From Bacteroidaceae bacterium (GTDB lineage: Bacteria > Bacteroidota > Bacteroidia > Bacteroidales > Bacteroidaceae), in the NCBI GenBank assembly GCA_902362375.1, contig CABIVS010000003.1:600060-664059 (forward strand): 64,000 bases of DNA. The letters run 5' to 3'. Both the position numbers and the translations under genes were made by a program. The notes beneath the pieces are model-generated. The model was not told the DNA's origin and did not search any database. It saw only the letters and a list, made by a program, of their open reading frames with translations. Positions 17,955-47,143 of this stretch are shown one piece after another (within the stretch, counting starts at the first letter, position 1; every line of letters begins with the position of its first letter).

Positions 17955-18021
17955 TCTGTAATTTAGGTATCTTTCTCTGTAATTTGTCTACATTCGATCT
18001 GCTTTTATTTCTCTACTTTTG
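17955..18021 (+). promoter_or_regulatory. Paired TCTGTAATTT operator and -7 promoter element
   Basis: TCTGTAATTT occurs at 17955-17964 and again at 17976-17985, a 21-bp direct repeat (two helical turns). The -7 box TACTTTTG is at 18014-18021, leaving exactly 28 bp after the second copy. The same arrangement recurs at 27026-27092, 43725-43791 and, more weakly, 47077-47143. A direct repeat on one face of the helix next to the -33 region is the usual layout for an AraC-type activator. Confidence 0.7.
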
Positions 18022-18077
18022 CAAAGTGAATCGTTGATAGAAAGAATTCTGAAAATAAAAAGTAATAAAGTAAAGTT

Positions 18078-18617
18078 ATGGCTAAAAAGGTTTTGATAAT
18101 TTCATCCAGTCCACGTAAAGGTGGTAATTCTGATTTATTATGTGATGAATTTATGAAAGGTGCTCTCGAAGCAGGTAATGAAGTGGAGAAGATTTTCCTG
18201 AAAGACAAAACAGTTCATCCTTGTACGGGATGCAGTGTTTGCAGTATGTACGGCAAACCTTGTCCGCAGAAGGATGATGCAGCGGAAATTGTAGAGAAGA
18301 TGATTGCTGCAGATGTGATTGTGATGGCAACTCCGGTCTATTTTTATACCATGTGCGGACAGATGAAGATTATGATCGACCGCTGCTGTGCACGCTATAC
18401 GGAAATAACCAATAAGGAATTTTATTTCATTATTGCGGCTGCGGAAAATAATAAAGCAATGATGGAACGTACCATTGATGGTTTCCGTGGCTTCCTCGAT
18501 TGCCTGGAAGGACCGCAGGAAAAGGGAACGGTTTATGGAATTGGTGCATGGAAGGTAGGGGAAATTAAGGATACTCCCTATATGCAGGAAGCTTACAAGA
18601 TGGGAAAAATGGTATAA
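18078..18617 (+). CDS. NADPH-dependent FMN reductase / iron-sulfur flavoprotein
   Basis: A 179-aa flavodoxin-fold protein. The FMN-phosphate loop is SSSPRKGGNSDLL near the N terminus. A Cys cluster CTGCSVC plus CPQKDD (residues about 49-66) matches the iron-sulfur flavoprotein type. TPVYFYTMCGQMKIMIDR is the usual second flavin contact. No signal peptide, so cytoplasmic. It likely reduces flavin, quinones or small electrophiles using NAD(P)H; the physiological substrate is unknown. Its promoter carries the 21-bp operator repeat shared with three other loci. A terminator follows at 18692. Confidence 0.88.
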   Translation: MAKKVLIISSSPRKGGNSDLLCDEFMKGALEAGNEVEKIFLKDKTVHPCTGCSVCSMYGKPCPQKDDAAEIVEKMIAADVIVMATPVYFYTMCGQMKIMIDRCCARYTEITNKEFYFIIAAAENNKAMMERTIDGFRGFLDCLEGPQEKGTVYGIGAWKVGEIKDTPYMQEAYKMGKMV

Positions 18618-18691
18618 CCTTTTGAAGGATAAAAATAAGGATTCAATCAGAAAGATTGAAAAGTCAAGAATTTTAATTGATTAGATTGCTT

Positions 18692-18733
18692 GTTCTGCCA
18701 CAGAATTATTATAATTTTGTGGCAGAACTTTTT
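18692..18733 (+). terminator. Terminator after the FMN reductase
   Basis: GTTCTGCCACA (18692-18702) pairs perfectly with TGTGGCAGAAC (18718-18728), followed by five T. Confidence 0.88.
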
Positions 18734-18765
18734 ATTTTACATTATTTGTTTGATAACTAAACGTC

Positions 18766-19587
18766 ATGAGCTATAAAATAACGACTCTTGTGGAGAATTG
18801 TGTCTATGGACGTAAATTGCAGGCCGAGCATGGTCTTTCTCTCTATATTGAGATCCAAGGGAATAGAATTCTTTTCGATACGGGAGCATCTGACTTGTTT
18901 ATCCGTAATGCCCGTCTGTTGCACATTGATTTACAAAAAGTTGATTATTTAATATTATCCCACGGTCACAGTGACCATACGGGGGGACTGCGTTATTTTC
19001 TGGAATTGAATACACAGGCAACCGTTGTCTGTAAACGTGAAATCTTTTCTCCTAAATTCAAGGATGAACGCGAGAATGGAATGAAGCATACGCAAAATCT
19101 TGATCTTTCCCGTTTCCGCTTTATCACAGAGCAGACCGAACTGCTTCCCGGAGTTTTTCTTTTTCCATCTATTGATATTATCAATCAGGAGGATACCCAT
19201 TTTGAACGCTTCTGGGGTCAGCAAGAAGATGGTTGCAAAATACCGGATACCTTTCAGGATGAATTGGCAATGGTGTTAGTGGAACCGGAAGGAGTTTCTG
19301 TGTTGAGCGCCTGTTCTCACCGGGGGATCACCAATATCTTGCGTACCGTTCGGGCTGCATTTCCTGAATCTTCCTGCAAGTTACTTCTCGGAGGTTTTCA
19401 CATTCATAATGCGGAAAAACAAAAATATCAGATCATTGCAGATTATTTGCAGGAATACCTTCCCCGGCAAATTGGCGTTTGTCATTGTACGGGAGTGGAT
19501 AAATACGCCTTCTTTTTCAAAGATTTTGGTGACAAAGCATTCTATAATTACACGGGAAAACTAATTCAAACTGATTTTTCAGAATAA
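18766..19587 (+). CDS. MBL-fold metallo-hydrolase (dihydropterin RFA-P synthase-like group)
   Basis: A 273-aa metallo-beta-lactamase-fold protein. The metal site SHGHSDHTGGL is at about residues 65-75, further ligands appear in SACSHRG and GGFHIHN, and the C-terminal GVCHCTG is typical of the subgroup often annotated as 7,8-dihydropterin-6-methyl-4-(ribofuranosyl)aminobenzene phosphate synthase. The metabolic role in Bacteroides is not established. No signal peptide. The protease gene follows 17 bp later, perhaps co-transcribed. Confidence 0.85.
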   Translation: MSYKITTLVENCVYGRKLQAEHGLSLYIEIQGNRILFDTGASDLFIRNARLLHIDLQKVDYLILSHGHSDHTGGLRYFLELNTQATVVCKREIFSPKFKDERENGMKHTQNLDLSRFRFITEQTELLPGVFLFPSIDIINQEDTHFERFWGQQEDGCKIPDTFQDELAMVLVEPEGVSVLSACSHRGITNILRTVRAAFPESSCKLLLGGFHIHNAEKQKYQIIADYLQEYLPRQIGVCHCTGVDKYAFFFKDFGDKAFYNYTGKLIQTDFSE

Positions 19588-19604
19588 ATATATAATAAAT
19601 TGAT

Positions 19605-22600
19605 ATGAAGAAACTAATAACTTCGTTAGCACTGGTATTATCAGCATTATCCAGCTATGCAATCACTCCTTTGTGGATGCGTGATGCACGTATTTCACCG
19701 GATGGAACCGAGATTGTCTTCTGTTATAAAGGAGATATTTATAAAGTTCCCGCACAAGGAGGAACTGCTGTTCAACTTACCACACAAGCCTCTTATGAAT
19801 CCAATCCCGTCTGGTCTCCCGACGGAAAACAAATCGCATTTGCCAGTGACCGGAATGGAAATTTCGACCTGTTCATCATGCCTGCTGACGGAGGTGTCGC
19901 CCGGAGACTGACTTACCATTCCGCATCGGAAATTCCCTCGGCTTTTACACCGGATGGAAAGTATGTCCTTTTCTCCGCTTCCATACAAGATCCTGCAAAC
20001 AGTGCTTTGTTTCCTACGGGAGCAATGACAGAATTATACAAAGTTTCTGTAGACGGAGGACGCACCGAACAAGTATTGGCAACTCCCGCCGAACTCGTTT
20101 GTTTTGATAAAGCAGGAAAGAACTTTCTTTATCAGGACCGCAAAGGTTTTGAGGATGAATGGAGAAAACATCACACTTCATCCATTACGAGAGATGTTTG
20201 GTTATACAATACCCAAACCGGAAAACATACGAACCTGACAAACCGGGGAGGGGAGGACCGTAATCCTGTATATGCACCTGATGGTAATACAGTCTATTTT
20301 TTGAGTGAACGTAATGGAGGTTCTTTTAATGTGTATACTTTCCCATTGAATACTCCACAAGAAGTAAAGGCTGTCACTACTTTTAAAACTCATCCGGTAC
20401 GTTTCTTGTCTGTCAGCGATAAAGGAACTTTGTGTTATACCTATGACGGTGAGCTTTATACCCAGAAACCCGGTGTACGTCCGGAAAAAGTAAAAGTAGA
20501 ACTTGTCCGTGACGATGAAGAGCAGGTTGCTGCACTTAAATTCTCACAGGGAGCCACTTCCGCTTCCGTATCTCCGGATGGCAAACAGGTTGCTTTTATT
20601 GTGCGTGGTGATGTTTTTGTAACTTCAACTGACTATGCTACAACCAAGCAAATCACAAATACTCCCGCGAAAGAAGCTTCCGTCTCTTTTGCTCCGGACA
20701 ACCGGACGCTGGTTTATGCCAGTGAACGCACCGGTAATTGGCAACTTTACACAGCAAAAATAAGCCGTAAGGAAGATCCTAATTTCCCTAATGCCACTCT
20801 TATTGAGGAGGAAGTTTTATTACCGTCCAAAACGGTAGAACGCGCCTATCCGCAATATTCGCCGGATGGTAAAGAGCTGGCTTTTATCGAAGACCGCAAT
20901 CGTTTGATGGTACTCGATTTGAAAACGAAGAAAGTACGTCAGGTGACGGACGGTTCTACATGGTATAACACCGGAGGTGGATTTGACTACGAATGGTCAC
21001 CGGATGGCAAATGGTTTACTCTTGAATTTATCGGCAACCGTCACGATCCTTATTCGGATATAGGTATTGTCAGTGCACAGGGAGGAGAGATAACCAATCT
21101 GACTAATAGCGGATATATCAGCGGTTCTCCGCGTTGGGTACTCGATGGAAATGCCATTCTTTTCCAGACCGAACGTTATGGTATGCGTGCGCATGCTTCC
21201 TGGGGATCGCAACAGGATGTTATGTTGGTATTTCTCAATCAGGATGCTTATGATCGTTATCGTTTGAGTAAGGAAGATTTCGAATTGCTCAAGGAACTTG
21301 AAAAGGAACAAAAGAAAGCAAAGGAGAAAGATGATAACAAGAAGAAAGACGGTGATAAGGAGAAGGCGGATGAGGAAAAAGCAGACCAGAAAGATATAGT
21401 AGTCGAGCTTAACGGCATTGAAGACCGTATCGTACGTCTGACTCCCAACTCTTCTGACTTAGGCAGTGCCATACTATCCAAAGATGGAGAGGATCTCTAC
21501 TATTTCTCTGCTTTCGAAGATGGATATGACCTTTGGAAAATGAATCTCCGTGAGAAAGAGACAAAACGTCTGCATAAACTCAATACCGGGTGGGCATCGC
21601 TGATGCTGGATAAAAAAGGAGATATCTTCTTATTGGGAAGCCGCAATATGCAAAAGATGGATGCCAAGTCGGATGCTTTGAAATCAATCAGTTATCAGGC
21701 TGAAATGAAAATGGATTTGGCAGCTGAACGTGAAGCGATGTTTGATCATGTGTACAAACAACATCAGAAACGTTTTTATAATGTCAATATGCACGGGGTA
21801 AACTGGGATGCCATGACTAATGCTTATCGCAAATTCCTGCCTCACATTGATAACAATTATGACTTTGCAGAACTGTTGAGTGAATGGTTGGGCGAGTTGA
21901 ATGTTTCACATACCGGAGGACGCTATTCTCCCAAAGGTAAAGGCGATGTTACTTCCAATCTGGGACTTCTGTTCGACTGGGATTATCAGGGAAAAGGGAT
22001 GCAGATTGCCGAAATTATCGAGAAAGGTCCGTTCGACCATTCACGTACCAAAGTAAAAGCAGGGTGTATCATTGAAAAGATTAACGGTGAGGAAATAACT
22101 CCCGATCATGACATCACTTGTCTGTTGAATAATAAAGCAGGGAAGAAGACCTTGATTTCAATCTACAATCCGCAAAATAAAGAACGTTGGGAAGAAGTTG
22201 TGATGCCGGTTACGAGCGGCCAACTGAATGGGTTGTTATACAAACGTTGGGTGAAACAGCGGGCGGCAGATGTTGAGAAATGGTCGAAAGGACGTTTGGG
22301 ATATGTTCATATTCAATCCATGGGAGATGACAGTTTCCGTACCGTTTACTCGGATATTCTGGGAAAATATAACAACTGTGATGGAATTGTGATTGATACT
22401 CGGTTCAACGGTGGTGGTCGTTTGCATGAAGATATTGAAATACTGTTCAGTGGTCAGAAATACTTCACTCAAGTAGTCCGCGGACGTGAAGCGTGTGACA
22501 TGCCAAGCCGTCGTTGGAACAAGCCGTCTATTATGCTGCAATGTGAAGCCAACTATTCGAATGCACATGGAACTCCATGGGTATATAAACATCAAAATAT

Positions 22601-22856
22601 AGGAAAACTTGTCGGTATGCCTGTTCCGGGTACAATGACGAGCGTGTCTTGGGAAACTTTACAAGATCCTTCACTCGTCTTTGGTATTCCTATTGTCGGC
22701 TATCGTTTGCCTGATGGCAGTTATTTGGAAAACACCCAGTTGGAACCGGATGTGAAGGTTGCTAATGATCCGGAGACGGTTGTTAAGGGAGAGGATACCC
22801 AATTAAAAGTGGCTGTCGATGAACTTCTGAAAGAAATAGATAAGCAGAAGAAGTAA
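19605..22856 (+). CDS. Tricorn-type S41 protease, exported
   Basis: A 1083-aa tricorn-like protease with signal peptide (MKKLITSLALVLSALSSYAI). Residues about 25-560 form WD40-like propellers with repeated SPDGKxIAF / SPDGTEIVF units. Next comes a short, extremely charged Lys/Glu/Asp linker (about 565-600), then the C1 domain with VSHTGGRY (the Ser-His pair of the catalytic tetrad), a PDZ domain (about 780-860, LGLLFDWDYQGKGMQIAEIIEKGP) and the S41 core with GIVIDTRFNGGGR and the GTMTSVSW nucleophile region. Predicted periplasmic peptidase that digests oligopeptides. The terminator downstream is shared with the facing gene. Confidence 0.9.
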   Translation: MKKLITSLALVLSALSSYAITPLWMRDARISPDGTEIVFCYKGDIYKVPAQGGTAVQLTTQASYESNPVWSPDGKQIAFASDRNGNFDLFIMPADGGVARRLTYHSASEIPSAFTPDGKYVLFSASIQDPANSALFPTGAMTELYKVSVDGGRTEQVLATPAELVCFDKAGKNFLYQDRKGFEDEWRKHHTSSITRDVWLYNTQTGKHTNLTNRGGEDRNPVYAPDGNTVYFLSERNGGSFNVYTFPLNTPQEVKAVTTFKTHPVRFLSVSDKGTLCYTYDGELYTQKPGVRPEKVKVELVRDDEEQVAALKFSQGATSASVSPDGKQVAFIVRGDVFVTSTDYATTKQITNTPAKEASVSFAPDNRTLVYASERTGNWQLYTAKISRKEDPNFPNATLIEEEVLLPSKTVERAYPQYSPDGKELAFIEDRNRLMVLDLKTKKVRQVTDGSTWYNTGGGFDYEWSPDGKWFTLEFIGNRHDPYSDIGIVSAQGGEITNLTNSGYISGSPRWVLDGNAILFQTERYGMRAHASWGSQQDVMLVFLNQDAYDRYRLSKEDFELLKELEKEQKKAKEKDDNKKKDGDKEKADEEKADQKDIVVELNGIEDRIVRLTPNSSDLGSAILSKDGEDLYYFSAFEDGYDLWKMNLREKETKRLHKLNTGWASLMLDKKGDIFLLGSRNMQKMDAKSDALKSISYQAEMKMDLAAEREAMFDHVYKQHQKRFYNVNMHGVNWDAMTNAYRKFLPHIDNNYDFAELLSEWLGELNVSHTGGRYSPKGKGDVTSNLGLLFDWDYQGKGMQIAEIIEKGPFDHSRTKVKAGCIIEKINGEEITPDHDITCLLNNKAGKKTLISIYNPQNKERWEEVVMPVTSGQLNGLLYKRWVKQRAADVEKWSKGRLGYVHIQSMGDDSFRTVYSDILGKYNNCDGIVIDTRFNGGGRLHEDIEILFSGQKYFTQVVRGREACDMPSRRWNKPSIMLQCEANYSNAHGTPWVYKHQNIGKLVGMPVPGTMTSVSWETLQDPSLVFGIPIVGYRLPDGSYLENTQLEPDVKVANDPETVVKGEDTQLKVAVDELLKEIDKQKK

Positions 22857-22887
22857 ATACAAAGTATAATTATATCTGAAATAAAAA

Positions 22888-22935
22888 GTCGCTTCTTTGA
22901 AAGAATCAATATCTTTTCAAAGAAGCGACCTTTTT
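22888..22935. terminator. Bidirectional terminator between facing genes
   Basis: GTCGCTTCTTTGAAAGA (22888-22904) pairs with TCTTTTCAAAGAAGCGAC (22912-22929) with one bulged base. T runs lie on the + side and A runs before the left arm, so it can act for both the protease (+) and the membrane-protein gene (-). Confidence 0.82.
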
Positions 22936-24765: not shown

Positions 24766-26523
24766 TTAACCGATAAGTGTTGTGATATCTTCTACAATCT
24801 GCTCATCTGTCAAGTGATTGGCACGGAGAAACTCCTGCAAATCAAAACGATCTACAAATTCTTTTTTAGCTCCATAGTTCAGGACTTTCATGTCTGTAGC
24901 ACCATAGTAGCGGGCAATTTTTTCACCGAAACCGCCATCCAATACACCGTCTTCCAATGTTATCACTAACTCGTGATCTGCTTTCAGCTCATCCATCAGT
25001 TCGTTGTCTACACCGGTGATGTAACGCGGATTGATGAGTGTTGCGTCGACATTGGCTTTTTCTTTCAGAAGTGATGCAACCGACTGTCCTAATCCATAGA
25101 ATGAACCCAAAGCCACAATGGCCACTTTCGAACCGCGATGAGTAACTTTGTAACGATTGAGAATGCTGTAATCGGAATCTACCGGTTCTCCGCTACTGAT
25201 TACATCTGTTGCCGGCACGCGGATAGCAACCGGGTGTTCATTCTGGCGGATACTCCATTCCAGCATGGCAATATATTCTTCCTTACAAGTCGGAGCCAGA
25301 TAAACCATATTAGGAATATTGCTGATAAGCGGAATATCGAAGAAACAGAGATGAGTCACATCATTCATTCCGGATAACGTACCCCAGAAGACCAACAAAA
25401 CAGCCGGATTGTTATTGATACAAAGGTCTTGTGAAAGTTGATCGTAGGAGCGTTGGATGAATGTACTATATACTCCGTAAACGGGTTTCCCACCATTGGC
25501 TGCGATACCCGAAGCAAGAGCTACTGCGTGTTCCTCGGCAATGCCTACATCTACGAATTGCTTGCCTGCTTCCTGACGGTGGTCCGGAGTAAATCCCAGA
25601 ACGGTGGGAGTACCAGAAGTGATTGTTACCACACGCGGGTCCTCCTTCATCTTTTTCAGCAGGTATTGGGCGGTTACCTCGCTGTAATCTTCTTCTTCAT
25701 CACTCACTTTTGCTTCTCCGGTTTCTACATTGAATGGAGTACGCCAGTGGTAAGTCTCTTTATCTTGCTCGGCACGTGCATAACCCTTACCTTTTAATGT
25801 ATTGATGTGTACTACTATCGGATGCTGAATATCTTTCACTTTAGAGAAAGCTTCAATCAATGCCTGTACGTTATTACCATCATTTACATACATATAATCC
25901 AGTCCCATTGCCTTGAAGAAGTTGCATTCGCACTGACCGTTACTGTCACGTAATTCTTTCAGATTCTTGTACAATCCTCCGTGGTTCTCGGCAATAGACA
26001 TCTGGTTGTCATTAACGATAATAATCATGTTAGTACCAAGTTCTGCTACATAATCCAATCCTTCGAAAGCTTCACCTCCGCTTAAAGAACCATCCCCTAT
26101 GACGGCTATGATATTTTCATTGCCGCCTGTAAGGTCGCGTCCCTTTGCCAATCCGCTGGCCAGGCTGACAGAAGTAGAAGTATGTCCGATGATGAAGAAA
26201 TCATGTTCACTTTCTTGCGGTTCGGTATAACCTGATACGTTATCGTATTTTTCCGGATGAAGGAACGCATCTTTACGACCGGTCAGCATCTTGTGTACAT
26301 AACTCTGGTGCGATACGTCAAATATAATTTTGTCTTTGGGTGAATTGAATACATAGTGTAAAGCAATCGTTGCTTCCACCATTCCGAAATTAGGTCCGAA
26401 ATGCCCGCCATGTTCACTTAATTTTTGCAGGAGTGCTGCACGGATTTCTCCACCTAACTCGTTTAGCTCTTTTTCCGACAGTTTCTTAACATCTGCAGGA
26501 GAATAAATATTTTCTAAATACAT
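24766..26523 (-). CDS. 1-deoxy-D-xylulose-5-phosphate synthase-like enzyme, divergent
   Basis: A 585-aa thiamine-diphosphate enzyme with the DXS domain order but shorter than the usual 620-640 aa. Conserved: GGHFGPNFGMVE with the active-site His, GDGSLSGGEAFEGL, VDVGIAEEHAVALASG with the catalytic Glu, and STFIQRSYDQ. Different from typical DXS: DVSHQSYVHKMLTGR and DNQMSIAENHGG. Normal DXS condenses pyruvate and glyceraldehyde 3-phosphate to start MEP isoprenoid, thiamine and pyridoxal synthesis. Whether this one is the housekeeping enzyme or a paralogue with another aldehyde substrate cannot be decided here. It stands alone. A candidate -7 box (TATCTTTG, 26581-26574) precedes it. Confidence 0.8.
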   Translation of the reverse strand: MYLENIYSPADVKKLSEKELNELGGEIRAALLQKLSEHGGHFGPNFGMVEATIALHYVFNSPKDKIIFDVSHQSYVHKMLTGRKDAFLHPEKYDNVSGYTEPQESEHDFFIIGHTSTSVSLASGLAKGRDLTGGNENIIAVIGDGSLSGGEAFEGLDYVAELGTNMIIIVNDNQMSIAENHGGLYKNLKELRDSNGQCECNFFKAMGLDYMYVNDGNNVQALIEAFSKVKDIQHPIVVHINTLKGKGYARAEQDKETYHWRTPFNVETGEAKVSDEEEDYSEVTAQYLLKKMKEDPRVVTITSGTPTVLGFTPDHRQEAGKQFVDVGIAEEHAVALASGIAANGGKPVYGVYSTFIQRSYDQLSQDLCINNNPAVLLVFWGTLSGMNDVTHLCFFDIPLISNIPNMVYLAPTCKEEYIAMLEWSIRQNEHPVAIRVPATDVISSGEPVDSDYSILNRYKVTHRGSKVAIVALGSFYGLGQSVASLLKEKANVDATLINPRYITGVDNELMDELKADHELVITLEDGVLDGGFGEKIARYYGATDMKVLNYGAKKEFVDRFDLQEFLRANHLTDEQIVEDITTLIG

Positions 26524-26785
26524 ATCAAACAGTTTTTCTAAATAATGTTTTTACTTATTTCTTTATGACACCGCAAAGATACTGCAGGATTTGAAATCTG
26601 TTTGTATATGAATTACGGATTAATTTACCCATATTACAGTTCCCCATAATAGGATAACTCAACTTTTATAAGGAAAAGTATTGATGTGTTATTAAAAAAA
26701 GAAACGTTTTCATTTTTGTGGAAGCATTTCTAGATTATATATGCGGAAAATACCTTATTATTATGAGCGATAAATATTCATAAGG

Positions 26786-26991
26786 TTATTTATGCAGTAG
26801 CATAATACGGCCATCTTTCTTATTTACAACAATATTATTTTCTCTTGCCAACCAATAGCTAAAACTGCTTCTTCAAAAGTCATAGTTAGCTTTTGACACA
26901 ACTCTTGTATGGAAAATTCGAATGTTCTTTTCTCAAGTTCATTCCATACACGTCCGGCATTACTGCCAATTTCTGTAATTCTTAAATTCAT
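26786..26991 (-). pseudogene. Frameshifted winged-helix (DUF2582-type) protein gene
   Basis: From ATG 26991 the frame reads MNLRITEIGSNAGRVWNELE and continues to FEEAVLAIGWQEKIILL, then stops after 55 codons. After the Trp of AIGW the +1 frame continues the family pattern (ARENNIVV, then GRIMLLHK) to a TAA at 26786. Small Bacteroidota winged-helix proteins usually read AIGWLARE at this point. Restoring one GGTT unit at the ATTGGTTGGCAAG junction gives exactly that, so a 4-bp slippage deletion is the simplest explanation. An assembly error is the alternative. It lies alone in the gap between the DXS-like gene and the promoter at 27026. Confidence 0.7.
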
Positions 26992-27025
26992 TTATCCAAT
27001 TACATTCTTTCTTAATATTCTACAA

Positions 27026-27092
27026 TCTGTAATTGGGGTTATAATGTCAGTAATTCGTCTACAAATGGTCTCTTTCTTTCATCGTACTTTTG
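27026..27092 (+). promoter_or_regulatory. Paired TCWGTAATT operator and -7 element before the hydrolase operon
   Basis: TCTGTAATTG (27026-27035) and TCAGTAATTC (27047-27056) are 21 bp apart. TACTTTTG at 27085-27092 follows the second copy after exactly 28 bp. Same geometry as at 17955-18021. Confidence 0.7.
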
Positions 27093-27142: not shown

Positions 27143-28174
27143 ATGAAACGGATTTTATTATTAACGGCTGTATTTATGATGATGCTCGGAACCAGTTTTT
27201 CTTCAGCACAGACAAATGCTGATAATTTTTATAAAAGTGATCGGGTGGATGTAGAAAAAGTATCTTTTTCTAACCAATATAAGATGAAAGTAGTGGGTAA
27301 TCTTTTTCTGCCCAAGAGTATGAAAGAAGGGGGAAAATATCCTGCAATCATTGTAGGGCATCCGATGGGAGCTGTTAAGGAGCAGAGTGCGAATCTCTAT
27401 GCAACGAAAATGGCGGAAAGGGGATTTGTTACACTGTCCATCGATTTGTCTTTCTGGGGTGAGAGTGAAGGCGAGCCGCGTAATGCAGTTTTGCCGGAGG
27501 TTTATTCGGAGGACTTTAGCGCTGCGGTTGATTTTTTAGGTACGCGTCCGTTCGTTGACCGGAATCTTATTGGTGTAATTGGAATTTGTGGGAGCGGAAG
27601 TTTTGCTATCAGTGCAGCGAAAATAGATCCTCGTCTCAAGGCCATTGCAACAATCAGTATGTATAATATGGGAGCAGCCAACCGTAATGGATTAAATCAC
27701 TCATTAACGTTGGAACAGAGAAAGCAAATAATGGCTGAAGCGGCGGAACAGCGTTATACAGAATTTTTGGGTGGGGAAACTAAATATACCAGTGGCACTG
27801 TACATCAGTTGACAGAAACGTCCAATCCGATCGAACGGGAGTTTTATGAATTCTACCGTACGCAGAGAGGAGAATTTACTCCTGACGGAGCAACTCCTAT
27901 GACCACTACACACCCTACGCTCTCAAGCAATGTGAAATTTATGAATTTCTATCCTTTCGAAGATATTGAAACTATTTCACCCCGCCCCATGCTTTTCATC
28001 ACCGGAGAGAATGCCCATTCACGTGAGTTTAGTGAAGACGCCTATCGATTGGCTGCCGAACCTAAAGAACTGTATATAGTACCCGGTGCCGGACATGTAG
28101 ATCTTTACGACCGTGTGGGTCTTATCCCGTTTAGTAAGCTGGAATCTTTCTTTAAGGAGTATCTGAAGAAATAA
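27143..28174 (+). CDS. Exported alpha/beta hydrolase (YcjY/dienelactone-hydrolase-like)
   Basis: A 343-aa protein with a signal peptide (MKRILLLTAVFMMMLGTSFSSAQ). The alpha/beta-hydrolase fold shows PAIIVGHPMGAVKEQ (oxyanion region), the nucleophile elbow GVIGICGSGSFA and a late GAGHVDLYD with the catalytic His. The elbow reads G-I-C-G-S, which puts Cys at the nucleophile position, as in dienelactone hydrolases. The substrate is unknown. First gene of a four-gene operon (next start 18 bp on) controlled by the shared operator. Confidence 0.85.
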   Translation: MKRILLLTAVFMMMLGTSFSSAQTNADNFYKSDRVDVEKVSFSNQYKMKVVGNLFLPKSMKEGGKYPAIIVGHPMGAVKEQSANLYATKMAERGFVTLSIDLSFWGESEGEPRNAVLPEVYSEDFSAAVDFLGTRPFVDRNLIGVIGICGSGSFAISAAKIDPRLKAIATISMYNMGAANRNGLNHSLTLEQRKQIMAEAAEQRYTEFLGGETKYTSGTVHQLTETSNPIEREFYEFYRTQRGEFTPDGATPMTTTHPTLSSNVKFMNFYPFEDIETISPRPMLFITGENAHSREFSEDAYRLAAEPKELYIVPGAGHVDLYDRVGLIPFSKLESFFKEYLKK

Positions 28175-28191
28175 GTTTCAATACTATAAAT

Positions 28192-28737
28192 ATGAGATAC
28201 TATATAATAACAATTCTTGCTATACTGACATTATCAGTCGGTTCCGCATCATGTAGTGAAGATGAACCTATACAGGGAACAGGGCAACAGGTAATTCCGG
28301 GTAATGGCTCTAGTGATAATGGCAGTAATAATAGTGGTAATAACACTGGTGATAACGACGATAACAATGATGATAATCCTGTGAGTAATAATCTTAAAGT
28401 AACAATCGGGACTGTTTCATTCAATGCTACATTGGAAAATAATGAGACAGCAAAAGCATTTGAGAGATTGCTTCCTATGACAGTGAATATGTCCGAATTG
28501 AACAATAATGAAAAGTATTATTATCTACAAAACGGTTTACCAACAACCCCATCCAGCCCAGGTACGATTCGGACAGGTGATTTGATGCTTTACGGATCCA
28601 CTTGTGTGGTACTTTTTTATGAAACTTTTTCCACTTCATACAGCTATACCCGTTTAGGGCGTATAACTAATCCTTCAGGGCTGCTTTCTGCCCTTGGAGC
28701 GGGAAGTGTAAATGTGATTTTTGAAATAACAGACTAA
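28192..28737 (+). CDS. Cyclophilin-like fold lipoprotein
   Basis: A 181-aa lipoprotein (lipobox SASC, Cys21). A low-complexity Gly/Asn/Asp/Ser linker covers about 30-65. The C-terminal domain (about 70-180) matches the cyclophilin-like family that is often linked to NADPH-flavin and hydrolase genes in gut bacteria: FNATLENNETAKAFERLLPMTVNMSELN, GDLMLYGSTCVVLFYETF, YTRLGRI. Activity is not established. Same operon as the hydrolase upstream and DUF3737 downstream. Confidence 0.78.
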   Translation: MRYYIITILAILTLSVGSASCSEDEPIQGTGQQVIPGNGSSDNGSNNSGNNTGDNDDNNDDNPVSNNLKVTIGTVSFNATLENNETAKAFERLLPMTVNMSELNNNEKYYYLQNGLPTTPSSPGTIRTGDLMLYGSTCVVLFYETFSTSYSYTRLGRITNPSGLLSALGAGSVNVIFEITD

Positions 28738-28745
28738 AAAATAAA

Positions 28746-29612
28746 ATGATGCAACAAATAAGAAATAAAGAATATGGAGGCGAACGCCCTCTATTTGCAA
28801 CCCATGACATTCAGTTGGAAGATGTAACGATTCATGCCGGTGAATCGGCACTGAAAGAATGTAGTAATATCATAGCGATAAACTGCCGTTTTGAAGGGAA
28901 ATATCCTTTTTGGCACACCAATGGATTCACTGTGAAGAATTGTCTTTTTACAGAAGGAGCTCGTGCTGCCCTATGGTATTCTCAAAGTCTGCAAATGGCG
29001 GATACCTTGGTGGAAGCACCGAAGATGTTCCGTGAAATGGATGGGATAAAACTCGAAAATGTGCAGTTGCCCAATGCCTTGGAAACGTTTTGGTATTGTC
29101 GTAATATAGAACTGAAGAACGTACAGATTGATAAAGCGGATTATCTTTTTATACATAGCGAGAATATCCATATACAAAATTACGCTCAAAATGGAAACTA
29201 TTCGTTTCAATATTGCAAGAATGTAGAAATCCATAATGCAGTCATCAACTCCAAAGATGCTTTTTGGAATACGGAAAATGTAACTGTCTATGATTCGGAA
29301 CTGAACGGAGAATATCTGGGATGGCATTCTAAAAATCTGCGTTTGGTAAATTGTAAGATTTCGGGCACTCAACCTCTTTGTTACGCACATGATCTGGTGA
29401 TGGAAAATTGTACGATGGCGGAGGATGCTGACCTTGCTTTTGAACATAGTAGCGTGAAAGCAACGATTAAAAGTCCGGTTCATAGTGTGAAAAATCCTCG
29501 TACAGGGAGTATTGTTGCCGAAAGCTTCGGCACAATTATTCTGGATGAAAATCTGAAAGCACCGGGAAATTGTGAATTGAAGCTTTGGGACGACCTAACC
29601 TGTTTTGATTGA
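28746..29612 (+). CDS. DUF3737-family parallel beta-helix protein
   Basis: A 288-aa cytoplasmic protein without signal. Short repeats of the form xxIxLxNVxIxxxxYxFxxSxNI run through the whole length, as expected of a right-handed parallel beta helix, and the start (IRNKEYGGERPLFATHDIQLEDVTIHAGESALKE) is characteristic of DUF3737. Function unknown. It lies 9 bp after the cyclophilin-like gene and 4 bp before the PLP enzyme, an association seen in many gut bacteria, which suggests a shared pathway. Confidence 0.85.
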   Translation: MMQQIRNKEYGGERPLFATHDIQLEDVTIHAGESALKECSNIIAINCRFEGKYPFWHTNGFTVKNCLFTEGARAALWYSQSLQMADTLVEAPKMFREMDGIKLENVQLPNALETFWYCRNIELKNVQIDKADYLFIHSENIHIQNYAQNGNYSFQYCKNVEIHNAVINSKDAFWNTENVTVYDSELNGEYLGWHSKNLRLVNCKISGTQPLCYAHDLVMENCTMAEDADLAFEHSSVKATIKSPVHSVKNPRTGSIVAESFGTIILDENLKAPGNCELKLWDDLTCFD

Positions 29613-29615
29613 TAT

Positions 29616-30776
29616 ATGAAGTATAATTTCGATGAAATTGTTTCACGCAGAGGTACGAATTCTTATAAATGGGACTCGTCCGCAGATGCGGATGTCTTGC
29701 CGATGTGGGTGGCTGATATGGATTTCCGTACGGCTCCCCCCGTCGTGGAGGCATTGAAGAAGTGGGTGGAACATGGGATTTTCGGATATGTACGCGTACC
29801 TGACGCATACTACGAAGCGATAACCAACTGGTTTGCACGACGACATGCCTGGCGGATAGAAAAAGAATGGATTATTTATACTACCGGAGTTGTGCCGGCA
29901 ATATCTGCTGCAATTAAAGCACTGACAGTACCCGGCGATAAAGTGATGGTGCAGACGCCTGTATACAATTGTTTTTTCTCCTCTATCCGTAATAACGGGT
30001 GCGAGATGATTGCCAATCCTTTAGTATATAGAAACAAAGGGTATCAGATTGACTTTGATGATTTGGAGAGGAAAGCTTCCGATCCGAAGATAAAACTCAT
30101 GTTGTTATGTAACCCGCATAATCCTGTCGGAAGAGTATGGAGTAAGCAGGAATTAAGGCGGATAGGTGAGATTTGTATTTGGAATAATGTGTTTGTGATC
30201 GCTGATGAAATTCATTGTGAATTGGTTTTTCTGGAACATGAATATACTCCTTTCGCTTCTATATCAGAAGAGTTTCTTATGAATTCGGTAACCTTTGTTT
30301 CGCCTAGCAAGGCTTTCAATCTGGCAGGGCTTCAGATAGCCAATATTATTTCTGCAGATGCAAATGTACGGGTGAGAGTAGATAAAGTGATTAATATAAA
30401 TGAAGTATGTGATGTGAATCCTTTCGGAGTGGAGGCGTTGATGGCTGCTTACAATGAGGGTGAAGAATGGCTGGAAGAACTTAAAATCTATTTGTTTGCG
30501 AATTACATCTATTTAAAAGGTTATTTTGATGAATATCTTCCGGAATTTCCCGTAATGATGTTGGAAGGTACGTATCTGGTTTGGGTAGATTGCTCGGTCT
30601 TGAATCAAACGTCAGCAGAAATAGTAAAAGACTTGTTGAAGAAAGAAAAGCTTTGGGTGAACGAAGGCAGTCTGTATGGAGAGACTGGTGAAGGATTTAT
30701 CCGTATCAATATTGCATGTCCGCGACAGCGGTTGATAGAAGGATTAAACAGATTGAAGCGGGTACTGAAATCATAA
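29616..30776 (+). CDS. PatB/MalY-type PLP-dependent C-S lyase
   Basis: A 386-aa fold-type-I aminotransferase-like enzyme. The N terminus (FDEIVSRRGTNSYKWD, LPMWVADMDFRTAPPVVEAL) is the MalY/PatB signature. The PLP lysine lies in SPSKAFNLAGLQIAN, with NPHNPVGRVW and DEIHCELVF before it and FIRINIACPR near the end. The expected activity is cystathionine/cysteine-S-conjugate beta-lyase. Last gene of the operon that begins at 27143. Confidence 0.9.
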   Translation: MKYNFDEIVSRRGTNSYKWDSSADADVLPMWVADMDFRTAPPVVEALKKWVEHGIFGYVRVPDAYYEAITNWFARRHAWRIEKEWIIYTTGVVPAISAAIKALTVPGDKVMVQTPVYNCFFSSIRNNGCEMIANPLVYRNKGYQIDFDDLERKASDPKIKLMLLCNPHNPVGRVWSKQELRRIGEICIWNNVFVIADEIHCELVFLEHEYTPFASISEEFLMNSVTFVSPSKAFNLAGLQIANIISADANVRVRVDKVININEVCDVNPFGVEALMAAYNEGEEWLEELKIYLFANYIYLKGYFDEYLPEFPVMMLEGTYLVWVDCSVLNQTSAEIVKDLLKKEKLWVNEGSLYGETGEGFIRINIACPRQRLIEGLNRLKRVLKS

Positions 30777-40494: not shown

Positions 40495-40502
40495 TATTCT
40501 GA

Positions 40503-42332: not shown

Positions 42333-42424
42333 AATAAACCCGAATCCTGTTTATAATAAACTTTTTGATAGTTTTAGTAAAACGGTATTCGAGTTTATTA
42401 TAAACTATTTGATAGCAGTTTTAG
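42333..42424. repeat. Nested inverted and direct repeats
   Basis: Two direct copies of a unit beginning GTTTATAATAAAC / GTTTATTATAAAC and ending in GATAG..TTTTAG (42349-42377 and 42393-42424). The two 13-mers are exact reverse complements. An outer pair AATAAACCCGAAT (42333-42345) and ATTCGAGTTTATT (42387-42399) pairs in 12 of 13 positions. Could be an operator array, a structured RNA or a mobile-element end. Confidence 0.55.
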
Positions 42425-42457
42425 AATTAGACGAGAGATTTTAAGCTGAATTATAAA

Positions 42458-42493
42458 CAAAATGGGGCAATAATCATTCGACTATTGCCCCAT
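42458..42493 (-). terminator. Terminator for the minus-strand AraC gene
   Basis: ATGGGGCAATA (42462-42472) pairs with TATTGCCCCAT (42483-42493). Read on the minus strand the stem is followed by TTTTG, 200 bp after the AraC stop. Confidence 0.55.
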
Positions 42494-42691
42494 ATCATAT
42501 AGGAGTCGGTATTGTAAAATACCGGGTTGTTTATGATTTATGTATGATTATTTCTATCTAATTTCATGCTTTTTATACTTTTTCTTTTCTCAAAGATACA
42601 ACATAAAAAGTCATTTGTCAAGAGTCTGATGCGAAAAGTATCTTATCGGTTTTAAAAACAGAAGAAGAATTTTGCTTCTGGCAACTGATTT

Positions 42692-43597
42692 TTATCCGGC
42701 TTGTGCGCGGTACTCATTGGGAGTAGTTCCTATGACTTTCTTAAATACCCTGCTTAAATGATGGGGGTATTTAAAACCGAGTTCGTATGCTATTTCGCTG
42801 ATTGTTTTATTACTTTCAATCAATAGTTCTTTTACTTTTTCCATTATGGCCAGTTGGATATATTCCTGTGCGGACTTTCCGGTTTCCTTTTTTACCAGAT
42901 CTCCAAAATAATTGGGAGAAAGGTGCATTTGTTCTGCACAGTATTGTACGGAGGGCAAACCGATCTCGGAGGGTTTGTCCGAATTGAAATATTGCTGAAG
43001 TATCTGTTCGAATTCGGTTAGTAAATCATGGTTGACTACTTCACGAGTGACGAACTGGCGTTCGTAAAAACGCACGCAATGATTGAGCAGGGTCTCTATA
43101 TTGGAAGTCACAATTTGTTTGGTATGCTTGTCGATTGCATTTTCCAATTCTTCCCGTATTTCATGAAAACAGTTCAAGATGATCCGGCGTTCCCGGTCAG
43201 ACATGTGAAGAGCTTCATTAGATTCATAAGAGAAAAAAGTATAGTCTTTCATTCTGCGGGCAAGGGGAGTACCATATAACAAATCGGGGTGAAACATAAG
43301 CACAAGACCTTTGGGATTTATAGTCTCACCGCCATCATTCACACCGGCTATTTGTCCCGGAGAAATGAAAACTAACGTACCATCTTCGTAATCGTATTTG
43401 TTACGGCCATATTGAAGCACACCGCAATCAAGTTCTTTATAGAACACACAATAAAAGCCGAAATTCTTTCGACAGTGCTTGAGGGATTGGAGCGTAGAGA
43501 AATCGGTTACACTAACCAGAGGATGCAGGGTTTCTGCACCTAGAAGTCTGTTATATTCCTGGATAGTTTCCAGTTTAATTATATTCTCCATATTCAT
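42692..43597 (-). CDS. AraC-family regulator (paralogue A)
   Basis: A 301-aa regulator; start placed at 43597 (MNMENIIKLETIQEYN) or 43591 by comparison with the paralogue at 46107, which begins MEEVIKLDEVDKYN. The longer frame to 43714 runs into the operator region. N-terminal cupin sensor (YEDGTLVFISPGQIAGVN) and C-terminal double HTH (LSPNYFGDLVKKETGKS; TISEIAYELGFKYPHHLSRVFKK). Recognition helices are nearly the same as in paralogue B (SANYFGDMISKQTG; QYPQHLSRMFKR). Divergent from the flavodoxin gene at 43816 and from the repeated operators at 43662-43755. Confidence 0.92.
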   Translation of the reverse strand: MNMENIIKLETIQEYNRLLGAETLHPLVSVTDFSTLQSLKHCRKNFGFYCVFYKELDCGVLQYGRNKYDYEDGTLVFISPGQIAGVNDGGETINPKGLVLMFHPDLLYGTPLARRMKDYTFFSYESNEALHMSDRERRIILNCFHEIREELENAIDKHTKQIVTSNIETLLNHCVRFYERQFVTREVVNHDLLTEFEQILQQYFNSDKPSEIGLPSVQYCAEQMHLSPNYFGDLVKKETGKSAQEYIQLAIMEKVKELLIESNKTISEIAYELGFKYPHHLSRVFKKVIGTTPNEYRAQAG

Positions 43598-43661
43598 ATT
43601 CTTTTGTTTCACAACAAAAATAAAGGTTTTCAATGAGAATGCCATACGGGATATGTCATAA

Positions 43662-43791
43662 AAGGTAATTTGTGTTTGATATTCTGTAATTTGTGTTAGT
43701 GTGCTGATTTGCAATATCGTGTGCTTAGTAAAAATGGTTATAATATCAGTAATTTGTCTATTGTGTTACTTTCTATATTCCGGTAACTTTG
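43662..43791. promoter_or_regulatory. Operator array and promoter between AraC-A and the flavodoxin gene
   Basis: Copies of the box lie at 43662 (AAGGTAATTT), 43683 (TCTGTAATTT), 43725 (TTAGTAAAAA) and 43746 (TCAGTAATTT): two pairs of 21-bp spacing, 63 bp apart, so all four are on one helical face. The -7 box TAACTTTG (43784-43791) follows the last copy after exactly 28 bp, and TTGT at 43761 may be the -33. Confidence 0.7.
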
Positions 43792-43815
43792 CATCATCGA
43801 AAGGTAATAACTAAA

Positions 43816-44394
43816 ATGAAATTGAAGATGAGAAAATTAGTATTGATTATGATGATGTGTTTAGCGGCATTGAGTTCTTACTCATGTGCCCAAAGTGATG
43901 AACCGGTCACCCTGGTGAGTGGAAAGAAAATCCTTGTTGCTTACTTCAGCTGGGGAGGTACTACAAAACGTTTGGCGGAGGAGATTGCTTCACTTACAGG
44001 TGGCGATTTGTTTTCTATTGAAACCGTTACACCTTATCCAACGGATTATACTCCTTGTACGGAGGTGGCGAAAGAGGAATTGGAGAAAGGTATTCGTCCT
44101 CCATTAAAAGATGTTGTTAAGAATATGGATGATTATGATATTGTTTTTGTAGGCTGTCCGGTGTGGTGGCATACAGCTCCAATGGCGATATGGTCATTTC
44201 TGGAAAGTAAAGAATACAATTTGAAGGGAAAAATCATTGTACCATTCTGTACTTATGCAGCCACTTACCGAGATGAAACTTTGGCTAAAATAGTAGAACT
44301 TACTCCGGATTCAGAACATTTGAAAGGTTTTGGCTCTACAGGTAGTACAAGTGGAGCAAAAGGTTGGTTGAAAGAAATTGGAATAATAAAATAA
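43816..44394 (+). CDS. Flavodoxin-like lipoprotein
   Basis: A 192-aa protein; ATG 43816 (or 43828) used because the longer frame from 43789 overlaps the -7 box. Signal peptide with lipobox SSYSC. The flavodoxin fold follows: KKILVAYFSWGGTTKRLAEEIASL (FMN phosphate loop SWGGTT), VGCPVWWHTAPMAIWSFLE and IVPFCTYAATYRDE. A flavodoxin on a lipid anchor outside the cytoplasm is unusual and must receive its flavin there. Downstream lies only the remnant of an aldo-keto reductase, whereas the paralogue at 49137 is still followed by one. Confidence 0.88.
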   Translation: MKLKMRKLVLIMMMCLAALSSYSCAQSDEPVTLVSGKKILVAYFSWGGTTKRLAEEIASLTGGDLFSIETVTPYPTDYTPCTEVAKEELEKGIRPPLKDVVKNMDDYDIVFVGCPVWWHTAPMAIWSFLESKEYNLKGKIIVPFCTYAATYRDETLAKIVELTPDSEHLKGFGSTGSTSGAKGWLKEIGIIK

Positions 44395-44420
44395 CAATAG
44401 ATACAAATAGGATAAGTATT

Positions 44421-44468
44421 ATGAAGTATAGAGAATTAGGAAATAGTCGGCTTCGGGTGTCTGCTATC
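44421..44468 (+). pseudogene. Truncated aldo-keto reductase remnant
   Basis: Sixteen codons read MKYRELGNSRLRVSAI, which is the N terminus of an aldo-keto reductase (compare [16 protein letters not shown] at 53914). The match breaks before the expected GLGCMG and the frame then reads unrelated sequence to a stop near 44541. It lies 27 bp after the flavodoxin gene, where the intact paralogous module has its reductase. Confidence 0.65.
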
Positions 44469-44796
44469 TTTAATCATAAGAAAGCATCTCGTCGTCAATT
44501 TCAGATATTGCTTTCTTTTCTGCATCCGAGAGGGGGGCAATAAAATGATTCCAAATCTTATTTTGTAGGGGGCTTCGAGTTTGAGATATTCTGTAAGTTT
44601 GGCTTTTATCGGACGTGTCATGTCTGACATGTAGGCTTCACTGTTTTCAAATGGAATGTATGTTCTGCTATTACTTCTGTTGGTATTGCCAAGTATAATA
44701 TTGTTAATTTATAAAAAGAGAGAACGAGCCGTTGATAAATAATTAATTTTGTAGCAACAAAGAGTGATATGGTAATGTGCATGGAACAGGGCATAA
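44469..44796. other. Decayed region after the reductase remnant
   Basis: No intact gene. The minus strand has a broken frame (YIPFENSEAY, then SDMTRPIKAKLTEYLKLE, shifting to SDAEKKAISEIDDEMLSYD before 44480) that may be a fragment of an unknown protein. On the plus strand 44656-44742 could encode a 28-aa peptide with one membrane helix. A -7 box TAATTTTG at 44744-44751 precedes the next gene. Confidence 0.4.
44656..44742 (+). CDS. Possible 28-aa single-helix membrane peptide
   Basis: ATG 44656 reads MYVLLLLLLVLPSIILLIYK and continues KRERAVDK to a TAA at 44742. One hydrophobic helix followed by a basic tail is what a small membrane protein looks like, but it could also be the end of a lost gene. 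No promoter or ribosome site supports it specifically. Confidence 0.25.
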   Translation: MYVLLLLLLVLPSIILLIYKKRERAVDK

Positions 44797-46068
44797 ATGG
44801 ACAGAGTAATGAAAATGATTGTAATATGTATTGTTGGCATTTGTAGCTTTTCTTTCTTATCTGCTCAAAATTTGGCAGATAATGTTATGGCGGAAAGAAG
44901 AGATAGTTTGCGTATCTCTACAACAACCAATTTTAGTAGAAGGCTTGATAAATTCTCATCTTCCCGTTTCTATCAGATGACGTATATCGGCATTCCGTTA
45001 ATGGTTGGTGGCTTGATTGTAAAAAATGAGGACGATCATTTTCGAGGTTTACGTAACGACTATCTGCCCCGTTTCAATCGTCATTTGGATGATTATATGC
45101 AATATGCCCCTGCTGCAGTGATGCTTGGTATGAAAGCAGCCGGAGTGCAAAGTCGCAGCTCATGGGGTAGAATGCTCGTTTCCGACGCTTTTTCCGCACT
45201 GCTGATGGGTGGTGTGGTAAATACTTTAAAGCAAACGACAAACGTCGAACGTCCGGATGGCTCAAACAAACATTCTTTTCCATCCGGACATACGGCTACG
45301 GCATTTATGACTGCTACCATGTTTACCAAGGAATACGGACATAAAAGTCCATGGGTAGGTGTCGGGGCATATAGTGTGGCTACTGCAACCGGTCTTATGC
45401 GGATGGCAAACAACAAGCATTGGTTAAGTGATGTGCTGACGGGGGCAGGAATCGGAATATTGTCGACGGAAGTGGGGTATTATTTTGCAGATCTGATATT
45501 CAGGGAAAAAGGAATCAATAGGTTTGCAGGTGAAGATAGGTTCGACAGAATGGATAGGCCTTCATTTGTCAGTTTGTATCTCGGATTGAATATCCCGTTG
45601 AGCAGTTATGATATCGACGAACAAATGGAGTTCCGTACTTCATCAGGCAGTTCGGCCGGTGTGGAGGGGGCCTGTTTCTTTAATCCGTATGTAGGCGTGG
45701 GAGGGCGATTCACTGTTTCCAATACTTTGATTATTGTCAATGAAGAACAGGCAGAAAATAACACATTTGATGCGATATCGCTTTGCGGAGGAAGCTATTT
45801 TTCATATCCGTTGTCTTCACGATGGCTGATAGGCAGTAAACTTCTGGGTGGATACGTGCATTATCCACAATTGGAATTAACTGACCGGTCGGTTTCTGCA
45901 AGAAATGGTTTCTGCATGGGAAGTGGGGTTTCCTTGACGTTCAAAGCAAAGGAATATTATGGAATCCGTTTTTTTCTCGACTATGATTTGCTTCCGTCGC
46001 ATAGTAGGAACAGTGGTGAGTATATGAATATGCTTACTTTAGGGTCATCATTTATGATTACGTTTTAA
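44797..46068 (+). CDS. PAP2-family phosphatase with C-terminal outer-membrane-like domain
   Basis: A 423-aa protein with signal peptide (start 44797, or 44809 MKMIVICIVG). PAP2 motifs: KQTTNVERPDG, SFPSGHTATAF (the SGH motif) and MRMANNKHWLSDVLTG (catalytic His and Asp). After about residue 245 a long beta-rich part follows (VSLYLGLNIPLSSYD, VGVGGRFTVSN, ending TLGSSFMITF) that looks like half of a beta-barrel. Probably a lipid phosphatase of the lipid A/undecaprenyl-phosphate type at the outer surface of the inner membrane; the second domain may place it at the outer membrane. Confidence 0.82.
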   Translation: MDRVMKMIVICIVGICSFSFLSAQNLADNVMAERRDSLRISTTTNFSRRLDKFSSSRFYQMTYIGIPLMVGGLIVKNEDDHFRGLRNDYLPRFNRHLDDYMQYAPAAVMLGMKAAGVQSRSSWGRMLVSDAFSALLMGGVVNTLKQTTNVERPDGSNKHSFPSGHTATAFMTATMFTKEYGHKSPWVGVGAYSVATATGLMRMANNKHWLSDVLTGAGIGILSTEVGYYFADLIFREKGINRFAGEDRFDRMDRPSFVSLYLGLNIPLSSYDIDEQMEFRTSSGSSAGVEGACFFNPYVGVGGRFTVSNTLIIVNEEQAENNTFDAISLCGGSYFSYPLSSRWLIGSKLLGGYVHYPQLELTDRSVSARNGFCMGSGVSLTFKAKEYYGIRFFLDYDLLPSHSRNSGEYMNMLTLGSSFMITF

Positions 46069-46106
46069 ATCGTAGCATATTTTATTCTTGCCTTTTTATA
46101 TAAAGA

Positions 46107-47003
46107 CTAATTCTGTGAGCGGAATTCATTGGGGGTACAACCCGTAATCCGTTTGAACATCCGGCTTAGATGTTGCGGATATTGGAATCCTAGTCCGTAA
46201 GCAATTTCACTTGTAGTCTTATCTGTTGCCAGCAAAGCTTCTTTGGCGCGTTCGATCAGTTTATTCTGGATATATTCCGAGGCGGTCTGTCCCGTCTGTT
46301 TGCTAATCATATCTCCGAAATAGTTTGCTGATAGAAATACTTTGTCGGCAAAGTATTTAACAGTAGGTAATCCCTCTCGTAGCGGAGTCTCGTTGTCGAA
46401 ATACTCATCCAGCAACCGTTCGAAACGGACAATGATGTCTTTGTTCACTTCTTCGCGTGTTGTGAACTGCCGTTCGTAGAAACGCATGCAATAATCGAGC
46501 AGTAGTCCGATATTGGCACAAATTAATCGGCGGCTGTGCTTGTCTATGTTGTGTTTCAGTTCTATTTCAATCTTATGTAGACAATCCATCACGGTCTCCC
46601 GTTCTTCCTCTGAAAGGTGTAATGCTTCACGGGTTTCGTAGGAAAAGAAAGAATAGTTCTTGATCTCCTGACCGAGTGCCGTGCCACGAATCAGGTCGGG
46701 GTGAAACAGGATGCCGTGAGCATTTGGCTGGACATTTTTAACCATCTTGGTTTCCGTTACCTGACCCGGAGCAAAACTGACAATCGTGCCGTCCTGATAG
46801 TCATAGTTCTGACGGCCATACATGATATTTCCGCAATAAGTATCTTTCAGAAAAAGAGCATATACGCCGTAGTTGATCTTGAAATGTTCCGGCCACTGCG
46901 TTGCTTTCGACAGATCGACAACACTTACCAATGGGTGTCGTGTTTCGAGTCCGAAAAGTTTGTTGTATTTATCTACCTCATCAAGTTTAATAACCTCTTC
47001 CAT
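46107..47003 (-). CDS. AraC-family regulator (paralogue B)
   Basis: A 298-aa close paralogue of the regulator at 42692, same length and domain order: cupin sensor (YGVYALFLKDTYCGNIMYGRQ, YQDGTIVSFAPGQV) and double HTH (LSANYFGDMISKQTGQT; TTSEIAYGLGFQYPQHLSRMFKR). It is divergent from the ABM monooxygenase operon at 47179, whose promoter has the 28-bp spaced box. A -7 element (TATATTTG, 47037-47030 on this strand) precedes it. Confidence 0.93.
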   Translation of the reverse strand: MEEVIKLDEVDKYNKLFGLETRHPLVSVVDLSKATQWPEHFKINYGVYALFLKDTYCGNIMYGRQNYDYQDGTIVSFAPGQVTETKMVKNVQPNAHGILFHPDLIRGTALGQEIKNYSFFSYETREALHLSEEERETVMDCLHKIEIELKHNIDKHSRRLICANIGLLLDYCMRFYERQFTTREEVNKDIIVRFERLLDEYFDNETPLREGLPTVKYFADKVFLSANYFGDMISKQTGQTASEYIQNKLIERAKEALLATDKTTSEIAYGLGFQYPQHLSRMFKRITGCTPNEFRSQN

Positions 47004-47067
47004 AATCCTTTCTTTTATATTCTTTATCGCAAATATAATTCATTTTATTTGAATTATAGATGGCTTT

Positions 47068-47143
47068 ATTACAGAATCGAGGATTTGGGTACAAATATCA
47101 GTAAATCATATACAAGCCCACTCATTTTATTGCAGTAGATTTG
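47068..47143. promoter_or_regulatory. Operator and promoter between AraC-B and the ABM operon
   Basis: TCAGTAAATC (47098-47107) is followed after exactly 28 bp by the -7 box TAGATTTG (47136-47143). A weaker match (TCGAGGATTT) lies 21 bp upstream at 47077, and an inverted box core ATTACAGA at 47068-47075 could serve the divergent gene. Confidence 0.62.

Follow-up and report, generated by a model that had tools for sequence, protein, structure and literature searches.

Five operons of a Bacteroidaceae bacterium share a predicted AraC-type activator site at a fixed distance from the -7 box

A 64,000-nucleotide stretch of the genome of a Bacteroidaceae bacterium (assembly GCA_902362375.1, contig CABIVS010000003.1, positions 600,060 to 664,059; hereafter the window) carries five operons, mostly of redox- or detoxification-type genes, that share a predicted AraC-type activator site at a fixed distance from their promoters. 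We are fairly confident that the five sites, named A to E (Table 1), are operators of a subfamily of AraC-family regulators with two members in the window (AraC1 and AraC2), and that they would serve the class II activation of a redox/electrophile regulon.

A preliminary description of the window had listed four TCWGTAAWTY decamers, each ending exactly 28 bp before a TAnnTTTG box, and all four are present as listed. The window contains ten such decamers. TAnnTTTG follows five of them at a distance of no more than 82 bp, namely 28 bp in four cases and 49 bp (28 + 21) in the fifth, the upstream copy of site A. The combination of the decamer, the 28-bp spacing and TAnnTTTG was found four times in 6,414 intergenic bases and in none of 500 dinucleotide shuffles; relaxing W to N raises the count to five. 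A fifth site (E, 26640-26603 on the reverse strand) was overlooked in the earlier count. It emerged from a relaxed scan with one mismatch to the earlier pattern, 28 bp from TATCTTTG and ahead of a DXS-like gene.

Alignment of the five window sites with two sites of G001, the nearest of the genomes compared, showed that the 21-bp repeat had been recognized correctly, whereas the unit is longer than the 10-bp box. The unit spans 38 bp and consists of a 17-bp half-site starting with TCNGTAAWT and carrying TA near its end, a 4-bp gap and a second half-site, and thus forms a direct repeat of 21 bp. It ends 21 bp upstream of the -7 box, at the place of the -33 element. With a position weight matrix (PWM) built from the two boxes only, the seven training sites score 40.1-46.2 (24.6-36.8 when left out one at a time), and a score of 9 was passed on average 0.15 times on one strand in 20 mononucleotide shuffles of the window. 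The upstream copies at 43725 and 47077 had been called weaker, which does not hold: the score of site C (40.4) is in the range of the others, and the copy at 47077 is a conserved variant half-site. The one-box pattern at three mismatches gave 14 matches in the window against a shuffle mean of 8.4, which is not significant (6 of 100 shuffles reach 14). At two mismatches it is unspecific in G001 (135 matches vs. 72 for the reversed control), and the two-box pattern was therefore used in its place. A scan of 43500-47300 for sigma-70 promoters and terminators gave counts below the shuffle means.

The site recurs in other genomes. The two-box pattern with the 28-bp spacing has 63 matches in 26 of 198 Bacteroidales genomes at two mismatches (one for the reversed pattern) and 65 matches in 17 of 31 relatives at three mismatches (none reversed). 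Relatives with species names, also scanned at three mismatches, are Bacteroides xylanisolvens XB1A (eight sites, three regulators), B. finegoldii (six sites, three regulators), B. fragilis Q1F2 (five sites, three regulators) and B. faecis MAJ27 (eight sites, four regulators), with no match in the reversed control. In 80 loci of AraC2 relatives (1.38 Mb), the matrix found 84 sites above 14 in 55 loci, compared with an average of 1.4 for five column-permuted matrices. Among the 61 sites of these AraC-fetched loci with TAnnTTTG within the following 60 bp, the spacing is 28 bp in 51, 27 bp in six, 29 bp in two and otherwise in two. These loci are free of a bias that makes two larger counts (100 of 144 unique sites and, in another set, 96 of 126) lean towards 28 bp, because loci L111-L160 were obtained from matches to a pattern containing that spacing, or from their surroundings. 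The 144-site set comprises sites scoring above 16, with each stretch of 90 bases counted once; for 33 of these, no TAnnTTTG lies within 40 bp. Because loci of one family have a common origin, the counts are not independent. On Cytophagales plasmids of Hymenobacter, Emticicia and Adhaeribacter, the best match of each locus is divergent from an araC relative (scores of 35.7, 26.4 and 15.5), and the box at 28 bp reads, by eye, CAnnTTTG, GAnnTTTG and GAnnTTTG, respectively. On a Parabacteroides distasonis plasmid, a like site (25.3) precedes an acetyltransferase gene; it is not divergent from the AraC match of that plasmid.

The operator is conserved beyond its surroundings. In 90 sites the operator columns are conserved, whereas the information content of the 21 spacer columns is 0 to 0.5 bits. 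Alignment of 15 divergent regions showed that the operator is kept while the remainder drifts, with the target-side -7 box lost in one of them (L048). Where long stretches align (alignments over 500 bases), the window shares 90-92% of bases with B. finegoldii and 85-89% with B. xylanisolvens; the AraC2 gene region shares 73% with the latter. These identities place the window in Bacteroides, close to both species.

Occurrence and position both link the site to the AraC subfamily. At E 1e-60, the subfamily is present in 24 of the 26 site-bearing genomes compared with 19 of the 172 other Bacteroidales genomes (Fisher 4e-17, not corrected for kinship). Among 63 Bacteroidales sites, 18 are divergent from and at most 400 bp away from an araC match, 12 of these at 68-77 bp, and 47 of the 80 AraC-fetched loci have a site divergent from the araC frame and no more than 200 bp away. 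In 48 of 57 regulator-operator pairs, a distance of 38 or 39 bp separates the operator from the -7 box of the regulator gene. In the window the distance is 39 bp for AraC2 and 102 bp for AraC1. The latter equals 39 plus three times 21, and the 39-bp place, where most relatives carry the operator, is occupied by the weak pair at 43662-43699. The earlier proposal of a dispersed regulon tied to AraC proteins is thus supported by the footprints in related genomes, the co-occurrence and the fixed divergent geometry, all read from sequence, although no araC gene of the window adjoins A, B or E. Between the B- and E-type sites of G001 lies a third AraC paralogue, and the corresponding interval of the window (26641-27025) is only 385 bp, in which no AraC remnant or counterpart of this paralogue was found. 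The regulator of A, B and E may therefore be located outside the window. By eye, genes for an exported flavoprotein-like and an MFS-like protein also lie in the G001 interval. Among AraC matches of at least 200 bits, with identical proteins removed, tandem pairs of araC genes of the subfamily occur in G001 and other genomes (L148:3957-5825; ~62% and 45% identical to AraC2). A candidate autoregulatory half-site at 47075-47066 on the reverse strand, 28 bp from the AraC2 -7 box, is present in B. finegoldii and eroded in the other AraC2 relatives, and is therefore not claimed.

Operator D differs from the others in a systematic way. GTAA in the upstream half is found in none of the 20 operators beside AraC2 relatives (at least 70%) compared with 31 of 37 others (0 of 17 vs. 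30 of 36 in an earlier count of distinct operators), and GTAAAT in the downstream half in 14 of 20 compared with one of 37. On a tree of 57 regulators (proteins over 330 residues trimmed to the last 300), the operator label changes four times against a mean of 19.0 in shuffles. The 21-row clade holding AraC2 (support 100/99) has a uniform operator label and differing downstream genes. By this label pattern, site D is a variant typical of its own clade rather than a decayed copy; the same pattern could arise if regulator and operator had been inherited together. A strict one-to-one pairing of the D variant with AraC2 relatives agrees with the tree and was rejected on two counter-examples: in G013 a D-type site precedes a CMD gene that shares 94% identity with that of the window, and in G002 one precedes another exported gene.

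AraC1 and AraC2 are 49% identical and, as described earlier, paralogues with nearly equal recognition helices. The start of AraC1, listed at TTG 43714, is more probably ATG 43597 or 43591, where its relatives begin. The AlphaFold model of AraC2 (predicted local distance difference test score, pLDDT, 89; predicted template modelling score, pTM, 0.82) has an AraC/RhaR-type N-terminal domain, resembling 2arc and 1xja in fold, and a MarA-type double helix-turn-helix (HTH). An N-terminal AraC-type regulatory/dimerisation domain and a C-terminal domain with two HTH motifs place the protein in the AraC/XylS family. In an alignment of 48 sequences, AraC2 cysteines 57, 141 and 172 are either invariant or conserved to at least 90%; they are possible components of a thiol sensor.

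The targets at the window sites and at the sites of relatives are frequently redox/carbonyl enzymes, in line with the earlier assignment. The first frames after the 144 unique sites encode CMD/cupin proteins (24), flavodoxins (16), alpha/beta hydrolases (11), aldo-keto reductases (10), FMN-reductase-like flavoproteins (10), DXS-like proteins (7), Fe-alcohol dehydrogenases (6), DUF3737 proteins (6), MBL-fold proteins (5), epimerase-type proteins (4), polyferredoxins (4), ABM proteins (3) and hexapeptide acetyltransferases (3), with the clusters labelled from one scanned or window-homologous member each. The remainder are three clusters of two and 15 single frames. Some of the single frames are short and doubtful, and they include an MFS transporter as well as a flavin reductase; no frame follows 14 of the sites. 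An aldo-keto reductase is encoded in window operon D, and relatives have both Fe-alcohol dehydrogenase and aldo-keto reductase targets. Two B. thetaiotaomicron genes in the iron-stimulon table of PMC10434189, one of the CMD family (fold value 2.04) and one of the AraC family (3.57), could not be matched to the present genes.

In the proposed mechanism, an AraC dimer would bind the 21-bp direct repeat, with the promoter-proximal half-site, ending 21 bp upstream of the -7 box, at the -33 place. Bacteroides promoters have a -33/-7 layout. Among the 100 sites with the 28-bp spacing, none has TTTG at the -33 place (six have TTTG further downstream). The position of the proximal half-site suggests that the bound protein would recruit RNA polymerase to a promoter without a -33 element. 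The ~21-bp direct repeat with its proximal half at the -35/-33 position corresponds to an AraC class II operator, as far as the sequence and the predicted promoters tell. The regulators would activate promoters that are poor alone, in cis at the divergent neighbour and in trans at unlinked operons. Control of the regulators' own genes is also probable, given the 38-39 bp kept between the operator and the -7 box of the regulator gene. The regulon would supply reductases, flavoproteins and hydrolases, several of which bear export signals, and its most likely role is a response to stress from reactive carbonyls or other electrophile/redox agents. A broader proposition, to which we give about an even chance, is that of an ancient Bacteroidota-wide electrophile/redox regulon with two to four co-resident AraC paralogues, one operator plan and slowly drifting dialects, in which a single operator at a set distance from each of two divergent promoters couples target activation to self-control.

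Several observations weigh against these assignments. Of the five window sites, only C and D lie next to an araC gene. Two of the 26 site-bearing genomes have no AraC at E 1e-60 among the candidates scored (at most 12 in most genomes), 19 of the 43 AraC-bearing genomes have no site at two mismatches, and 25 of the 80 AraC loci, some ending near a contig end, have no site above the PWM cut. TAnnTTTG is absent within 40 bp of 24 of the 83 sites above 16 in the AraC-fetched loci, and a single Vibrio relative and a single Alteromonas relative (40-42%) have no site. G013 and G002 have no regulator more than 64% identical to AraC2, that is, none inside the AraC2 clade, so that cross-reading by paralogues is likely. 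The proposed kind of inducer is a suggestion drawn from the enzyme families.

The near-invariant spacing (51 of 61 at 28 bp) and the -33 place without TTTG would also be expected if the block were the promoter element of an alternative sigma factor at a sigma-specific distance, not an operator. However, the -7 box is the ordinary TAnnTTTG, spacings of 27 and 29 bp are tolerated, and the element is a direct repeat of 38 bp, each half of which holds two conserved blocks, and goes together with araC genes in position and occurrence. These features make the explanation very unlikely. Binding by a different regulator, such as the Crp-family protein encoded at 17141-17830 divergent from site A, with a like frame in G001, is highly improbable. 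Crp/Fnr sites are palindromes and the block is a direct repeat, no Crp type was found among the genes scanned beside the other four window sites, and AraC is present in 24 of the 26 site-bearing genomes. As a side observation, the Crp-family protein may add a second input at A, and a second weak two-box match (17918-17955, score 14.1) overlaps the upstream end of operator A.

Common descent of duplicated promoters without present function accounts for the orthologous sites in G001 and B. xylanisolvens, which have a common origin; it is barely credible for operator columns that stay conserved beside spacer columns nearly devoid of information, before unrelated target genes and as far as Cytophagales. 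A regulon under AraC control that serves the use of aromatic or plant compounds, not stress defence, is a more serious but still rather doubtful alternative. CMD/cupin proteins, ABM monooxygenases, Fe-alcohol dehydrogenases and hydrolases are also found in catabolic pathways, and AraC proteins are frequently nutrient sensors. However, no uptake-kinase or ring-opening pathway was recognized among the 13 target clusters of at least three members, and the targets form a mixed set of reductases, flavoproteins and hydrolases encoded at several loci in each genome.

Table 1. Predicted operators, -7 boxes, regulators and target genes in the window.
Feature	Position	Strand	Remarks
Operator A	17955..17992	+	half-sites 17955-17971 and 17976-17992; PWM 43.9, leave-one-out 32.1
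-7 box TACTTTTG of flavoprotein promoter A	18014..18021	+	28 bp past decamer
Target A, NADPH-dependent FMN reductase-like flavoprotein	18078..18617	+	PF03358 4e-24
Operator E	26603..26640	-	PWM 44.4; same site in G001
-7 box TATCTTTG of promoter E	26574..26581	-	
Target E, DXS-like transketolase (NF008968/PRK12315 subfamily)	24766..26523	-	
Operator B	27026..27063	+	PWM 46.2; conserved in G001 and B. xylanisolvens
-7 box TACTTTTG of promoter B	27085..27092	+	
Target B gene row	27143..30776	+	exported alpha/beta hydrolase, cyclophilin-like, DUF3737, aminotransferase
AraC1, AraC-family regulator	42692..43597	-	likely start ATG 43597 or 43591
-7 box TATTTTTG of AraC1's own promoter	43615..43622	-	
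Weak operator-like pair	43662..43699	+	score 12.0; 39 bp from AraC1 -7, 63 bp (3 x 21) upstream of operator C
Operator C	43725..43762	+	PWM 40.4
-7 box TAACTTTG of promoter C	43784..43791	+	
Target C, exported flavodoxin	43816..44394	+	192-amino-acid reading
AraC2, AraC-family regulator	46107..47003	-	298 amino acids
-7 box TATATTTG of AraC2's own promoter	47030..47037	-	39 bp from operator D
Operator D, AraC2-type variant	47077..47114	+	GATTTGGGTA in upstream half, GTAAATC in downstream half
-7 box TAGATTTG of promoter D	47136..47143	+	
Target D gene row	47176..50876	+	ABM protein, CMD/cupin, hexapeptide acetyltransferase, flavodoxin, twin-arginine translocation (TAT)-signal aldo-keto reductase

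To our knowledge, Bacteroides AraC proteins have been described mainly for sugar use, and among the papers listed in searches of the open-access literature, a scope outside which most subscription papers lie, no title or abstract opening dealt with this operator or AraC subfamily. Recognizing a redox/carbonyl regulon of common gut genera by its predictable operator offers a direct handle on how these anaerobes may meet aldehydes, quinones or oxidants in the gut. It also places many genes so far without a name (DUF3737, exported flavodoxins, CMD/cupin proteins) in a single testable regulon and provides a well-defined set of apparently activator-dependent promoters.

E. coli AraC binds at araI1-I2 of pBAD to two ~17-bp direct half-sites with a 4-bp gap, the proximal half lying by -35/-33, and its gene is divergent. 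The present system resembles this layout in the 21-bp direct repeat, the proximal half near -35/-33 and the divergent regulator gene, and the modelled fold of the AraC2 regulatory domain appears to be like that of E. coli AraC. It differs in the operator sequence, the Bacteroidota -7 box TAnnTTTG, the several unlinked targets and the redox enzymes in place of sugar use. For rhamnose and other sugar AraC-type regulons, operators have reportedly been defined by comparative genomics; targets and operator differ from those here, where no sugar pathway was recognized among the recurrent targets. In E. coli, the AraC-family gene yqhC is divergent from yqhD-dkgA, encoding an aldehyde reductase and an aldo-keto reductase, and the system is described in PMC5297802 as responding to aldehydes. 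A kinship of YqhC with the present regulators beyond the HTH domain was considered and dropped, as pairwise BLASTP aligned only 80 HTH-domain residues (25% identity), and no such 21-bp repeat was seen by eye in the yqhC-yqhD interval. The likeness lies in the targets, which here include Fe-alcohol dehydrogenases and aldo-keto reductases, and by analogy with E. coli YqhC it points to a carbonyl or electrophile/redox stress response.

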